Origin: Amycolatopsis alba DSM 44262
GTDB taxonomy: Bacteria > Actinomycetota > Actinomycetes > Mycobacteriales > Pseudonocardiaceae
Direction of reading: 5' to 3'
NCBI RefSeq assembly: GCF_000384215.1
Contig: NZ_KB913032.1
Coordinates: 186,001-250,000 of the forward strand
Length of the DNA stretch: 64,000 nucleotides
Of the stretch, positions 50,410 through 55,362 are shown piece after piece (positions within the stretch are counted from its first letter, which is position 1; every line of letters begins with the position of its first letter). The notes under the pieces were generated by a model, which was not told the origin of the DNA, did not search any database, and saw only the letters and a list, made by a program, of their open reading frames with translations. A program made the position numbers and the translations under genes.

Positions 50410-51393
50410 TCAGCGACTTGTGCCGTGGGCGTCGACGACTTCCAGGACAGCGCGCTCCAGCGCGTACTCCGGGTTGGCCGCGGCACCCTTGACCTCGGCG
50501 TTGAGCCGGGCGACGATCCGCATCGCGGTGGCGAGGCCGTCCTGCCCCCAGCCACGAGCCTGCCCTTGCGCCTTGCGGACCTTCCACGGCGGCATCCCCA
50601 GCTCGCCCGCCATCTGGTTCGGGTTCCCGCGACCAGCTCCCGACACCCGCGCGATCGTCCGGACGGCGTCGGCGAGGGCATCCGCGACCAGCACGTGCGG
50701 AACACCCAGCTGCATCGCCCAGCGCAGCGACTCCAGCGCCGCCGTCTTGTCGCCGGCGACGGCTTTCTCGGCGACGGCGAACCCGTTCACGTCCGCACGG
50801 CCTCGGTGGTAGCGCCGGACGGCCTGCTCGTCGACCGTTCCACCGGCGTCCGCGACGAGCTGGGTCGCGGCCGACGAAAGCTCGCGCAGATCCGAGCCGA
50901 CGGCGTCGATCAGGGCGAGCACGGCCGCACCGTCGATCTTCCCGCCGACCCGGCGGACCTCGTTACGGACAAAGGATTCGCGCTCCGCGGGTTTGGTCAG
51001 TTTCGGGCACTCGACGACCTCCGCCCCTGCCTTCTTCAAGGCCGCGGGAAGCGCCTTCGCGGCCTTGCTCCGGCCGCCTCCGCTGTGCACGACGACGAGC
51101 ACGATGCCCTCGGCGGGTGCCTTGACGTAGGCCATCACCCCGTCGGAGAGCTCCTGCGAGATGTCGTGCGCCGATTCGAGGACGATCACCCTGCCCTCGG
51201 CGAACAGTGAAGGGCTGACCATCTCCGCGAGTGCGGGGACTGTGAGGTCCGACACCCGGATCCGGGTCAGATCCGCCGTCGGATCGGCCGCTTTGGCCGC
51301 GTCCGAGGCGCTGCGGATCGCGCGTTCGATCAGCAGCTCTTCCTCACCGAGAACCAGGACCAGCGGCGATGGGGCGGAAGCTTGCGTCGTCAC
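50410..51393 (-). CDS. holA: DNA polymerase III subunit delta
   Basis: A 327-residue clamp-loader subunit: LVLVLGEEELLIERAI at the start, ILVVHSGG-like IVLVVVHSGGGRSKAAKALPAALKKAGAEVVECPKLT in the middle, DLRELSSAATQLV and the C-terminal KVRKAQGQARGWGQDGLATAMRIVARLNAEVKG. It opens the beta clamp for loading. GGGAGGA lies 8 bases before the GTG at 51393. Order with rpsT and comEC/EA is that of mycobacteria. Confidence 0.95.
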   Translation of the reverse strand: MTTQASAPSPLVLVLGEEELLIERAIRSASDAAKAADPTADLTRIRVSDLTVPALAEMVSPSLFAEGRVIVLESAHDISQELSDGVMAYVKAPAEGIVLVVVHSGGGRSKAAKALPAALKKAGAEVVECPKLTKPAERESFVRNEVRRVGGKIDGAAVLALIDAVGSDLRELSSAATQLVADAGGTVDEQAVRRYHRGRADVNGFAVAEKAVAGDKTAALESLRWAMQLGVPHVLVADALADAVRTIARVSGAGRGNPNQMAGELGMPPWKVRKAQGQARGWGQDGLATAMRIVARLNAEVKGAAANPEYALERAVLEVVDAHGTSR

Positions 51394-51530
51394 GGAGAGG
51401 ATCCTCCCACTCCTCCTCTCGTGTGCTTTGTCCGGTGATGTGTTCCGGGCACTGTGGCCCCACCTGAGCCTCATGTCGTACGGTGTTGGCGAGGCGACGC
51501 GATCATGTGCGTGCCGACAATCGAATACCG

Positions 51531-51659
51531 CTCATCCAGAGGGGCAGAGGGAACGGCCCGATGAAGCCCCGGCAACCGGCGTCAGCCTGTCATCCCGCGA
51601 TCGCGGGATAGCTGACGAACACGGTGCCAATTCCGGCCCGCCATGGCGGGGCAGATGAG
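51531..51659 (+). ncRNA. SAM-I (S-box) riboswitch
   Basis: The conserved S-box elements appear in order: CTCATC (51531-51536, P1 5' strand), AGAGGGGCAGAGGGAACGGC-type P2/internal loop region from 51538, CCCGATGAAGCCCCGGCAACC region at 51558-51578, the variable P3/P4 stem with GCGATCGC (51596-51605), GGTGCCAATTCC (51623-51634), and GATGAG (51654-51659, P1 3' strand). The 3' P1 strand runs into the Shine-Dalgarno of the following gene (AGGAAAGGA, 51658-51666), so SAM binding should hide the ribosome binding site and switch off translation. Confidence 0.95.
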
Positions 51660-51673
51660 GAAAGGACCTCGCG

Positions 51674-52939
51674 ATGACCGCAACCCTCGGCACGACCTCC
51701 ACCACCAAGACCCCGGATCTCGGACCGGCCGTCGAACTGGTGTCGAAGGAAGAGGGACACCGGCAGCCGCTCGCCCCCGAATTCGTTTCCGCCGAGGACT
51801 TCTCGCCGCTCGAGGTCGCCTACGACTTCGGCCGCGTGCGTCGCGAGGACATCGAATCCGGGCCGAACAACATCTGGCGCTACAAGAAGCTCCTTCCCGT
51901 TCCGTCGAACGTCGAAGAAATCCCCAACACCGAACCCGGCGCCACCCGGCTCGTCCAAGCCGACAGGCTCGCGAAAGCCTTGGGTGTCAAGAAGGTCTGG
52001 GTCAAGGACGACACCGGCAACCCCACTCACTCGTTCAAGGACCGCGTGGTCGCCGTCGCACTGGCCGCCGCCCGTGAGTTCGGGTTCGACGTGCTCGCCT
52101 GTCCGTCGACCGGCAACCTGGCCAACGCCGTCGCCGCCGCGGCGGCCCGCGCCGGCTGGCGGTCGGTCGTGCTGATCCCGAAGACCCTCGAGCGCGCCAA
52201 GATCCTCACCACCGCCGTGTACGACGGCGACCTGATCGCGGTCGACGGCAACTACGACGACGTGAACCGGCTCGCCACCCAGCTCGCCGCCGAGCAGGAG
52301 AGCTGGGCGTTCGTCAACGTGAACGTCCGGCCCTACTACTCGGAAGGCTCCAAGACGCTGGCCTTCGAGGTCGCCGAGCAGCTCGGCTGGCGGCTTCCCT
52401 CGCAGATCGTGGTGCCGATCGCCTCCGGTTCCCAGCTCACCAAGGTGGACAAGGGTTTCCGCGAGTTCGGACAGCTCGGCCTCGTCGACGAGACGCCGTA
52501 CAAGGTGTTCGGCGCGCAGGCCACGGGCTGCTCCCCCGTCTCGGCGGCCTTCCGCGCGGGCCACGACGTCGTCCAGCCGGTCAAGCCGGACACGATCGCC
52601 CGGTCGCTGGCGATCGGGAACCCGGCGGACGGCCCCTACGTCCTGGACGTGGTCAACCGCACCGGCGGCGCGATCGAAGACGTCACCGACGAAGAGGTCG
52701 TCGAAGGCATCCGGCTGCTCGCCCGCACCGAGGGCATCTTCACCGAGACCGCCGGCGGGGTCACCGTCGCAACGGCCAAGAAGCTCATCGAGGCAGGCAA
52801 ACTCAACCCGGACGAGGAGATCGTCCTGCTGATCACCGGCGACGGTCTCAAGACCCTCGACGCCGTCGAGGACAAGGTCGGCCCGAAGGCCACCGTCAGC
52901 GCCTCGGCAGACGCGGTCCGCGAGGCTCTCGGCATCTGA
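51674..52939 (+). CDS. thrC: Threonine synthase family protein under SAM riboswitch control
   Basis: The 421-residue PLP enzyme of fold type II has the PLP lysine in NPTHSFKDRVVAVALAAARE (about 117-136), STGNLANAVAAAAARAGW with the phosphate-binding loop, and a C-terminal EGIFTETAGGVTVATAKKL. It should convert O-phosphohomoserine to threonine. It stands alone, not in a hom-thrC-thrB operon, and is preceded by a SAM-I riboswitch 14 bp upstream. That makes a methionine-linked role possible: threonine-synthase homologues that make homocysteine from O-phosphohomoserine and sulfide have been reported in Streptomyces, as far as I recall. Sequence alone does not separate the two activities. Confidence 0.85.
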   Translation: MTATLGTTSTTKTPDLGPAVELVSKEEGHRQPLAPEFVSAEDFSPLEVAYDFGRVRREDIESGPNNIWRYKKLLPVPSNVEEIPNTEPGATRLVQADRLAKALGVKKVWVKDDTGNPTHSFKDRVVAVALAAAREFGFDVLACPSTGNLANAVAAAAARAGWRSVVLIPKTLERAKILTTAVYDGDLIAVDGNYDDVNRLATQLAAEQESWAFVNVNVRPYYSEGSKTLAFEVAEQLGWRLPSQIVVPIASGSQLTKVDKGFREFGQLGLVDETPYKVFGAQATGCSPVSAAFRAGHDVVQPVKPDTIARSLAIGNPADGPYVLDVVNRTGGAIEDVTDEEVVEGIRLLARTEGIFTETAGGVTVATAKKLIEAGKLNPDEEIVLLITGDGLKTLDAVEDKVGPKATVSASADAVREALGI

Positions 52940-52947
52940 GTTCCCGC

Positions 52948-52975
52948 CGGCCCGCCTCAAGAACGAGGCGGGCCG
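52948..52975. terminator. Terminator between thrC and comEC
   Basis: CGGCCCGCCTC and GAGGCGGGCCG pair over 11 bp around AAGAAC. The comEC stop codon (52957) lies inside the stem, so the structure serves thrC and overlaps the end of comEC. Confidence 0.8.
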
Positions 52976-55362
52976 CGGGGCTCACCCCGGCGCACCAGGG
53001 AGAGTCCTCGCGCGTCGGCGACGACAGCGGTGTCGCCATCCGTGTCCGTTCTGGCCACGGAAGCACCGACCGCCGTCAGATTGTCCAAAGTGGACTTGTT
53101 CGGATGGCCGTAAGTGTTTCCGGCGCCGACACTCACCAGCGCGAGCCGCGGCGCGACGGCGTTGAGGAAGTCCGGTGCGGTGTAGCGGCTTCCGTGGTGC
53201 GGGACCTTCAAGATCTCGGCACGCAGATCGGCGCCCTCGGCCATCAGGTCGGCCTGCGCGGCGAGTTCGACATCGCCGGTCAGCAGCACCCGGCCCGCCG
53301 GGGTTCCGGCGCGCAGGACGACGGACCCGTTGTTGATCACCGTGCCGTCCTGTTCACGGGCCGATCGCCGGGTGACATAACGCGGCCCCAATACATCCAG
53401 CGACAGCCCCGGCCAGTCCAGCCGTTGCCCGATCCCCAGTTCCAGCAAGGGAATCCCGCGACGTGCGGTCTCGTCCGCGATCTGCTGCCATGCCCACGCG
53501 GGAGCACGACCCGGACCGACGGCGACCGCCCCGACCGACCTGCCCTCGAAGACGGATTCGAGACCGCCGATGTGGTCGGCGTGCAGATGACTCAGCACGA
53601 TCAGCGGAACCCGGTCCACGCCGAGCCTGCTCAGGCATTCGTCGACCGGCCCAGGTTCCGGCCCGGTGTCGACCAGGACCGCCCTTCCCGGCTCGCCCGT
53701 CGCGAGAACGACGGCATCGCCCTGTCCGACGTCGCAGGCGACGGCACTCCACGACGCCGGTGGCCATGCCGGAGCCAGCACGCGGACCGGCACGAAAACG
53801 AGCAGCCCGCCAGCCAGCGCAACAGCCAGCAGGATCCTGGCGTGCCGCAGCCGGATGGCGACGAGCAGCACCACGAGCAGGCCGGCCGCCAGAAGCCCGC
53901 CCCACCAGCCACCCGGCCAGTCCACGACCGCTCCCGGCGCACGGGCGCCGTGGCGGGCCACGGTGATGAGCCAGCTCGCCTCGGGTTCGGTCAGGCGGAC
54001 CAGCAGCCTGCCCGCCGACGGCCACCAGGGCCCGACGACGGTCGCGAGGACACCGAACACGGTGGCCGGGGCGACCACCGGCGCGGCGAGCACGTTGGTC
54101 ACCACCGAGACGAGACTGATCGATCCCGCCATGCCTGCGATGATCGGTGCCGTCATCACGAACGCGGCCAGCGGGATGGCCAGCCCCTCGGCGTAGCCGG
54201 CCGGAACTCCGCGTCCGACCAGCCACTCTGCCCACCGCGGCGCCAGCAGCACGAGCCCTGCCGTGGCCAGCACCGAAAGGGCGAACCCGAAGTCGGCGGC
54301 CATCGCGGGATCTACCACGACGAGCCCCGACACCGCGAACGCCAGCGCCGGCAGCGCCGAACCCCGGCGTCCCATGGCCAGCGCCAGCAGCCCGACCGCC
54401 CCCATCACCCCGGCGCGGAGCACGCTGGGCGCGGGTCCGGCGAGGACCACGAACCCGGCGAGCCCCGCGGCGGCCGCGGCGGCGGACGTCCGCGGCCCGA
54501 CCCGGAGCGCTTTCAACAGGAGAAGGATCGAGCCGCAGACGATCGCCACGTTCCCACCGCTCACGGCCATCAGGTGGGACATGCCGGAGTCCGTGAACTC
54601 GTGCTCGACCCTCGGGGACAGCGTGCTCGTGTCCCCCACGACCAGTCCGGGCACAAGACCGGCCTGCTCCTCCGGGAGGACGGAGCACAGGCCCCGGAGC
54701 CCGGTGCGCAGCGATTCCGCGGCTCGCTGCCACCAGGGCGCCGGTGCGAGGACAGACGGCGGACCTCGCACCGAGAGGACCGCGACCGTCAGTTCGCCCC
54801 CCTTCGCCGGTGCCAGCCGTCCGGAGGCGGTGACCTGCTGCCCAGGCAGCAGGTCCGTCCACCCTTCGGCGGGAGCGAGCAGGAGGATCCGGCCGTCCGA
54901 ATCAACCACCCGCTCATCCGTCTCCGCGGTGTCCACCGTCGCGGCGATGACCACCAGGCGGATGCCCGCCCGGCGATCGGCGTATCCGGCGCCGCGGACC
55001 GGACGTGGCCGCTCGGTGACCACCGCCCTCGTGGTGACTTCGCTCCCCCGTGCGGCGGCGGCACGGAGGTCGTCGTGTTCGGCGGCCCGGATCCTCAGCG
55101 CCACCGGACCGGCGGTGAGCACACCGAGGATCGCGAGCGCGCCCAGGCCCGTCACCCACCGGGACGCCGTCCGGCGGGCGCGGACACCGGTGATGATCGC
55201 GAGCACCACGGCGGCCGCACCGCAGAGCATCGCGATCCACCAGCCGACGAGCAGCCCGGAAAGAGTGCCGAGCCAGGCCGTCGCCGCGGCCGGTATCAGC
55301 CGCAGGTCCTGCCCTCGCCACGACGTGGTGTCCACTTCGGACGGATCGGCGGACGGGTTCAT
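52957..55362 (-). CDS. comEC: ComEC/Rec2 family DNA-uptake channel
   Basis: An 801-residue polytopic membrane protein. An N-terminal DUF4131 region (about 1-190), the competence membrane domain (about 240-500, VVGDTSTLSPRVEHEFTDSGMSHLMAVSGGNVAI), then a metallo-beta-lactamase-like domain with SHLHADHIGGLESVF (about 590-604) and a VLLTGDVE...VPHHGSRY pair of metal motifs. In competent bacteria ComEC carries single-stranded DNA inward; its role in actinobacteria without known competence is unclear. Stop and start with comEA overlap by 4 bases. Confidence 0.93.
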   Translation of the reverse strand: MNPSADPSEVDTTSWRGQDLRLIPAAATAWLGTLSGLLVGWWIAMLCGAAAVVLAIITGVRARRTASRWVTGLGALAILGVLTAGPVALRIRAAEHDDLRAAAARGSEVTTRAVVTERPRPVRGAGYADRRAGIRLVVIAATVDTAETDERVVDSDGRILLLAPAEGWTDLLPGQQVTASGRLAPAKGGELTVAVLSVRGPPSVLAPAPWWQRAAESLRTGLRGLCSVLPEEQAGLVPGLVVGDTSTLSPRVEHEFTDSGMSHLMAVSGGNVAIVCGSILLLLKALRVGPRTSAAAAAAGLAGFVVLAGPAPSVLRAGVMGAVGLLALAMGRRGSALPALAFAVSGLVVVDPAMAADFGFALSVLATAGLVLLAPRWAEWLVGRGVPAGYAEGLAIPLAAFVMTAPIIAGMAGSISLVSVVTNVLAAPVVAPATVFGVLATVVGPWWPSAGRLLVRLTEPEASWLITVARHGARAPGAVVDWPGGWWGGLLAAGLLVVLLVAIRLRHARILLAVALAGGLLVFVPVRVLAPAWPPASWSAVACDVGQGDAVVLATGEPGRAVLVDTGPEPGPVDECLSRLGVDRVPLIVLSHLHADHIGGLESVFEGRSVGAVAVGPGRAPAWAWQQIADETARRGIPLLELGIGQRLDWPGLSLDVLGPRYVTRRSAREQDGTVINNGSVVLRAGTPAGRVLLTGDVELAAQADLMAEGADLRAEILKVPHHGSRYTAPDFLNAVAPRLALVSVGAGNTYGHPNKSTLDNLTAVGASVARTDTDGDTAVVADARGLSLVRRGEPRGPPRS

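Follow-up and report, generated by a model that had tools for sequence, protein, structure and literature searches.

In the Mec-CysO-CysM carrier system of Mycobacterium, CysO feeds cysteine synthesis, and in Streptomyces albulus the carrier gene metO reportedly lies downstream of metM, with the sulfur being supplied as a thiocarboxylate. According to PMC12172450, Hasebe et al. (2024, doi 10.1128/aem.01247-24) identified MetM of Streptomyces as an enzyme that synthesizes homocysteine; PMC12172450 also places a SAM riboswitch upstream of metM in S. albulus, states that MetM guards this species against methionine auxotrophy and names metO in connection with a gene of the carrier family. It further describes a protein of Microcystis that is 51.6% identical to MetM and whose gene has an adjoining metO-like gene and no riboswitch; in vitro this protein had threonine synthase and threonine deaminase activity, and its behavior agrees with that of MetM only in part. 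The Microcystis case illustrates that neighborhood and homology are no proof of function and, since it combines a carrier neighbor with threonine synthase activity, it slightly lowered our confidence in the assignment made below. T-box control of thrC in Bacillota, as presented in PMC12452182, is a different case, and passages of PMC13257386 contain nothing on MetM. Our search found no paper on the Amycolatopsis gene analyzed here or on a MetM without MetO, a weak negative result as most subscription papers lay outside the search.

The window, that is, the whole 64-kb stretch of DNA that was analyzed (G000:C1:186001-250000 of a 9.8-Mb genome), contains a gene which we consider highly probable to encode a MetM ortholog that makes homocysteine from O-phosphohomoserine under the control of a SAM-I riboswitch, with CysO as its likely sulfur source. 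By this mechanism, a fold-type-II PLP enzyme of the threonine synthase family would divert O-phosphohomoserine from the threonine branch and would exchange its phosphate for sulfur, yielding homocysteine. The aptamer in the leader would sense SAM, the end product, and SAM would stabilize the P1 helix and thereby lower translation, as the Shine-Dalgarno sequence overlaps the 3' strand of this helix. The sulfur would probably be delivered by the CysO-type carrier of a mec-cysO-cysM cluster.

The Locus and Its Product

In the ORF list of the window, a 421-residue reading frame begins with the ATG at 51674 and ends at 52939 on the + strand; its product is a PALP-family protein. Both flanking genes, holA-like upstream (50410-51474) and comEC-like downstream (52957-55362), are on the opposite strand and the gene therefore stands alone, as had been said in a reading of the sequence without database searches (hereafter, the sequence-only reading), which noted that it has no hom-thrB partners. 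The features of the locus are:

51529..51661, + strand: SAM-I (S-box) riboswitch aptamer (RF00162, 80.2 bits; gathering cut-off 44.4)
51531..51536, + strand: P1 5' strand, CTCATC (from the sequence and the Rfam alignment)
51654..51659, + strand: P1 3' strand, GATGAG, which shares bases with the Shine-Dalgarno region (from the sequence, the Rfam alignment and the position of the anti-Shine-Dalgarno duplex)
51657..51670, + strand: possible small hairpin, GAGG-AAAGGA-CCTC, which excludes P1 and has the Shine-Dalgarno sequence in its loop; found in the ligand-free minimum free energy fold
51658..51667, + strand: Shine-Dalgarno region (site of the strongest pairing to the 16S tail, -10.0 kcal/mol)
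51674..52939, + strand: MetM-type threonine-synthase-like PLP enzyme of 421 residues, proposed to be an O-phosphohomoserine-dependent homocysteine synthase
51743..51799, + strand: N-terminal ribbon region, with Ser, Glu, Ser and Asp at the cysteine positions 24, 27, 39 and 42
52037..52039, + strand: codon of Lys122, which aligns with the PLP lysine of threonine synthases

Among the best 80 of at least 569 relatives, the proteins of A. azurea and A. decaplanina are each 99% identical to the window protein. A Foldseek search with the AlphaFold model (mean pLDDT 84.4) returned threonine synthases as the top matches.

The SAM-I Aptamer and the Ribosome-Binding Site

The aptamer matches RF00162 over its full length (model positions 1-108 of 108, E 2.9e-17), is the sole element in the whole 64 kb to reach an Rfam gathering score and stops 12 bases short of the start codon. 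The sequence-only reading had called the S-box elements complete, with CTCATC and GATGAG as the P1 strands, and this description stands; the two outermost pairs of the Rfam P1 are non-standard here, which leaves CTCATC/GATGAG. It had further tied the Shine-Dalgarno sequence to the 3' strand of P1. To score this, the most stable pairing to the 16S tail, using what we take to be its sequence, was located within the 20 bases before the ATG. In the window this duplex (about 51658-51667) includes the final two bases of the P1 3' strand, in agreement with that reading, and among 130 sequences tried the best duplex overlaps P1 in 123 of the 127 that could be scored. In the remaining four, all from genus g22, it starts one base past P1. 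The 3' P1 strand, as picked by script, starts 14-26 nt before the start codon in 127 of the 130 sequences; of the three left unscored, L071 and L191 miss the search pattern yet have an Rfam match, and L189 is without such a gene.

The + strand between 51400 and 53000 showed no terminator-like site and this, along with a P1 that runs into the ribosome-binding site, fits control at the level of translation, in which SAM is expected, judging from the layout of the leader, to close the ribosome site. In the ligand-free minimum free energy fold of the leader P1 is not formed, which counts against a P1/Shine-Dalgarno switch. The small GAGG/CCUC hairpin of that fold is possible in 91 of 127 sequences (75 of the 80 rows comprising the window and 79 near relatives, and 16 of the 47 others); since it is not general, we draw no mechanism from it.

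Covariation gives weak support for the SAM-I structure. The stored structure has its pairs formed in 95.7% of alignment cells, compared to 39-45% when the structure is slid along the alignment, and the covariation score of the whole structure beats that of 500 out of 500 shuffles. Two-sided changes occur in five of the 27 pairs, a count that was reached by 37 of 500 shuffles, and four of these five pairs are in P4, two of the four being mostly unpaired. Further pair types show no excess over shuffles (489/500). P1 is nearly invariant and so covariation cannot test it.

The genome has one other SAM-I match (L012 7727-7817, - strand; G000:C1:2570726-2570816), situated 199 bases before a gene whose product, an ABC ATPase that resembles MetN and carries a NIL domain, scores below the NCBIfam MetN cut-off. 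The P4 hairpin of this second match is almost absent in the alignment.

Linkage of SAM-I to the MetM-Type Gene

In a survey of 246 genomes from the same class as the source, evidently Actinomycetes, SAM-I was detected in 170 (E 0.001) and a MetM-type protein in 162 (best E < 1e-100), all 162 being among the 170 with SAM-I. The 1e-100 cut was our choice: the other genomes have best matches of about 1e-42 to 1e-64 or no match, and the range from 1e-64 to 1e-100 is empty. Coordinates were available for 150 of the 162 genomes, and SAM-I lies upstream of the MetM-type gene in every one of them. In 139 the two share a strand and 2-112 nt separate the end of the aptamer from the matched protein, and in the other 11 (5 + 6) a SAM-I above gathering score is found upstream on the same strand in the extracted stretches. 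Additionally, a model built from 17 aptamers, including that of the window, gave a single match, located upstream, in all 80 of the nearest relatives (the best 80 of at least 569, nearly all of them Pseudonocardiales).

In three stretches (L180, L246, and L248) a long insert places the end of the Rfam match more than 200 nt upstream of the gene; the GGTGCCA core and the P1 3' strand nevertheless lie directly before the start codon. Such an insert, between GGCAACC and the GGTGCCAATTCC core, occurs in five stretches of genus g57 (L180 1656-1989, L246, L248, L181, and L247), in which the starts of GGCAACC and GGTGCCAATTCC are 96 to 245 nt apart, compared to 52 in the window, with both P1 strands intact.

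Candidate Sulfur Carriers

Beyond the 80 nearest relatives, 33 of 48 genomes have a gene for a CysO/MetO-like carrier adjoining the MetM-type gene (flanks of 1.5 kb in 29 of the 48). None adjoins it in the 80 nearest relatives, for 76 of which about 4 kb downstream was covered and for four 1.6-3.1 kb, and none adjoins it in the window. The window's genome has three ThiS-family proteins (E 0.001), none encoded near 51674-52939. One is CysO-like, its gene being in a row with JAB-domain and CysM-like genes (L030), and the sequences of the other two look ThiS- and MoaD-like; a MetO-type carrier was not found among the matches of this ThiS-family search. In a carrier tree the CysO-like protein falls on the side of the MetO group, a placement that is unsettled as the deep forks are weak, and it was its CysM-like and JAB neighbors that led us to call it CysO-type. 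The genome's CysO and the MetO-like proteins have a common PAVAGG end.

Four genomes (G008, G029, G082, and G175) have a MetM-type gene with neither MetX nor an adjoining carrier gene. They encode two, one, three and three ThiS-family proteins, respectively (the G029 genome being 94% complete), one in each being of CysO type and located next to a CysM-like motif. In G029, G082, and G175 the CysO-type carrier has residues after Gly-Gly, so that trimming would be needed.

Given that no MetO-type gene was found in the window's genome, CysO is the most probable donor for a MetM that lacks MetO, the alternative being free sulfide. A MetM of the window's clade that used free sulfide instead of a carrier protein would explain the missing MetO gene, and since such a proposal keeps the MetM enzyme and changes the sulfur donor only, we treat it as a variant of the best explanation. 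It draws on the lack of a MetO-type carrier, on the single CysO-type carrier in each of the four genomes above and on the trimming required in three of them. Set against this are the position of that carrier beside a CysM-like motif in all four and the PAVAGG end common to CysO and the MetO-like proteins, and we regard the use of free sulfide as rather unlikely and CysO as the better candidate.

Separation from Canonical Threonine Synthase

The sequence-only reading had proposed looking for a second thrC in the genome, and one is present in a separate hom-thrC-thrB locus (L011, with the genes in a row); the window gene is thus not the only thrC homolog. An L31-Actinobacteria ribosomal protein leader occurs in the same stretch (L011 1813-1848, - strand). 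The window protein and the canonical ThrC are 33.4% identical over 350 aligned positions. A search of 23 genomes found canonical ThrC elsewhere in the genome in all 23, the MetM type being present in 21 of them; G224 gave one match only to the window protein at E 1e-30 and a separate ThrC is not evidenced there. Both proteins of the window's genome pass the NCBIfam model TIGR00260 (thrC), the window protein with 282.6 bits and ThrC with 297.4 bits at a cut-off of 167.1, and so this model does not separate the two.

A tree does separate them. Among 99 rows (76 of the 129 MetM-type sequences and 23 ThrC) analyzed by a quick method, MetM type and ThrC are split by one long inner branch with an SH-aLRT support of 100, drawn as 4.4 + 5.0 changes per column; in this comparison with ThrC, part of the tree suggested by the sequence-only reading, the window protein falls in a separate clade. 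Thr89, Ser156, Arg161, and Asn189 of the genome's own ThrC are replaced by Leu149, Asn217, Tyr222, and Ser251 in 129 of 129 MetM-type sequences, and ThrC Asn158 by Arg, likewise in all 129. The O-phosphohomoserine site of ThrC is not conserved in the window protein, which has Leu, Asn, Tyr, and Ser instead; in the Thermus enzyme, several of the replaced positions are binders of the substrate phosphate. All 129 MetM-type and 23 ThrC sequences retain the PLP lysine and Asn215, and 127 of the 129 retain Thr388.

In plants, threonine synthase is activated by SAM. An alternative for the window gene is that it encodes a second threonine synthase and that SAM does no more than keep the threonine branch in balance with that of methionine, a proposal to which the TIGR00260 score and the threonine synthases among the nearest folds lend some weight, as does the cyanobacterial MetM relative with threonine synthase activity in PMC12172450. 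We judged threonine synthase to be the less likely function based on the presence of a canonical ThrC and the replaced substrate-site residues, and the frequency with which MetM-type genomes lack MetX (below) and have an adjoining carrier gene also argues against it; overall, we consider this proposal improbable. A homocysteine role instead of a threonine role, the central idea of the sequence-only reading, is very likely for the window gene when the separate clade, the SAM-I linkage (150/150), the lack of MetX in 87 of 162 genomes and the adjoining carrier (33/48) are taken together.

Other Routes to Homocysteine

MetX (E 1e-60, 246 genomes) was detected in 75 of the 162 MetM-type genomes, leaving 87 without it, and in 79 of the 84 genomes without the MetM type. 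Five genomes have neither (G007, G010, G069, G071, and G180), of which G069 has MetA. MetA (E 1e-20) is present in four of the 246 genomes and in none of the 87 MetX-less MetM-type genomes; HcyBio was found in 0 of 246 at the cut-off used. In genus g22, 17 of 23 genomes are without MetX. The association of MetM and MetX has a Fisher p of 5.8e-15, which ignores relatedness and is not taken as proof, the counts of this census being burdened by the kinship of the genomes.

The possibility that the window's genome is without other homocysteine routes was rejected, as it encodes MetX (520 bits) and MetY (797 bits) in addition to a cystathionine gamma-synthase (647 bits), each above its NCBIfam cut-off. 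Since MetX and MetY are present here, and MetX in 75 of 162 MetM-type genomes, the window gene may be dispensable. The genes for MetX and MetY are side by side at G000:C1:2285124-2287504. No known RNA element that could control metXY was found, as nothing in L023, L016, or L022 reached an Rfam gathering score; the parallel MetM-type gene has SAM-I and the metXY stretches are without any element at that threshold.

Plant cystathionine gamma-synthase acts on O-phosphohomoserine. That MetX-less genomes make homocysteine in some other way, for example by a cystathionine gamma-synthase, and that the SAM-controlled gene has a different substrate finds room in the fact that Cys_Met_Meta_PP enzymes were surveyed in the window's own genome only, and is made very improbable by the invariable SAM-I linkage and by the S. 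albulus auxotrophy result given in PMC12172450.

A MetM-Type Variant Without Ribbon Cysteines

Eighty-one of 129 MetM-type sequences have a CX2C-X11-CX2C arrangement near the N terminus, which would be predicted to form a zinc-binding ribbon with its four cysteines; 45 lack all four cysteines and three retain a single one. A single branch (support 99) sets apart all 17 sequences in the tree with none or one, and hence a single loss explains them. We tentatively propose, at somewhat less than even confidence, that in Amycolatopsis and its relatives MetM gave up MetO and draws on CysO, that one clade (Amycolatopsis, Prauserella, Haloechinothrix, Saccharopolyspora, Actinopolyspora, and Actinoalloteichus) lost three to four ribbon cysteines once, and that the enzyme runs beside MetX-MetY as a SAM-controlled route. 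If true, one thiocarboxylated protein would feed both cysteine and homocysteine synthesis.

The acceptance of the window protein by TIGR00260 means that automatic annotation will tend to name it a threonine synthase, a name that is probably wrong for the MetM type, given that this type is paired with SAM-I, often occurs without MetX and has other residues than ThrC at the substrate site. These residues are simple markers for distinguishing the MetM type from ThrC. Moreover, the MetM route is not confined to MetX-less genomes, as 75 of 162 carriers have MetX, including that of the window; this coexistence makes the purpose of each route testable, along with the identity of MetM's carrier where metO is missing.

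Comparison with Known Systems

The MetM system, with its O-phosphohomoserine-dependent homocysteine synthase, is already known from Streptomyces (PMC12172450), and an enzyme of the kind that the sequence-only reading had in mind for that genus exists. To it, our analyses add class-wide counts, a variant without MetO and the ribbon cysteines, and the coexistence with MetX-MetY. As with S. albulus MetM (GenBank BHXC01000007, as cited in PMC12172450), the window protein is a threonine synthase homolog with an upstream SAM riboswitch and a likely role in methionine synthesis. Proteins from four genomes of one genus, with 63-65% identity and an adjoining carrier gene, served as stand-ins for S. albulus MetM and are not MetM's own sequence. 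Unlike S. albulus MetM-MetO, the window gene is without an adjoining carrier gene, its product has all four N-terminal cysteines replaced, and MetX and MetY are present in the genome.

The window protein shares with the ThrC of hom-thrC-thrB loci its membership in the PALP family and the PLP lysine, but differs in having neither a hom nor a thrB neighbor, in the SAM-I upstream and in four changed substrate-site residues. Compared to the SAM-I family (RF00162), the aptamer is a full-length match whose P1 leads straight into the ribosome-binding site. Finally, the row of JAB-domain, CysO-like, and CysM-like genes in this genome is like the Mec-CysO-CysM system of Mycobacterium, and here we propose a second use of CysO together with MetM.
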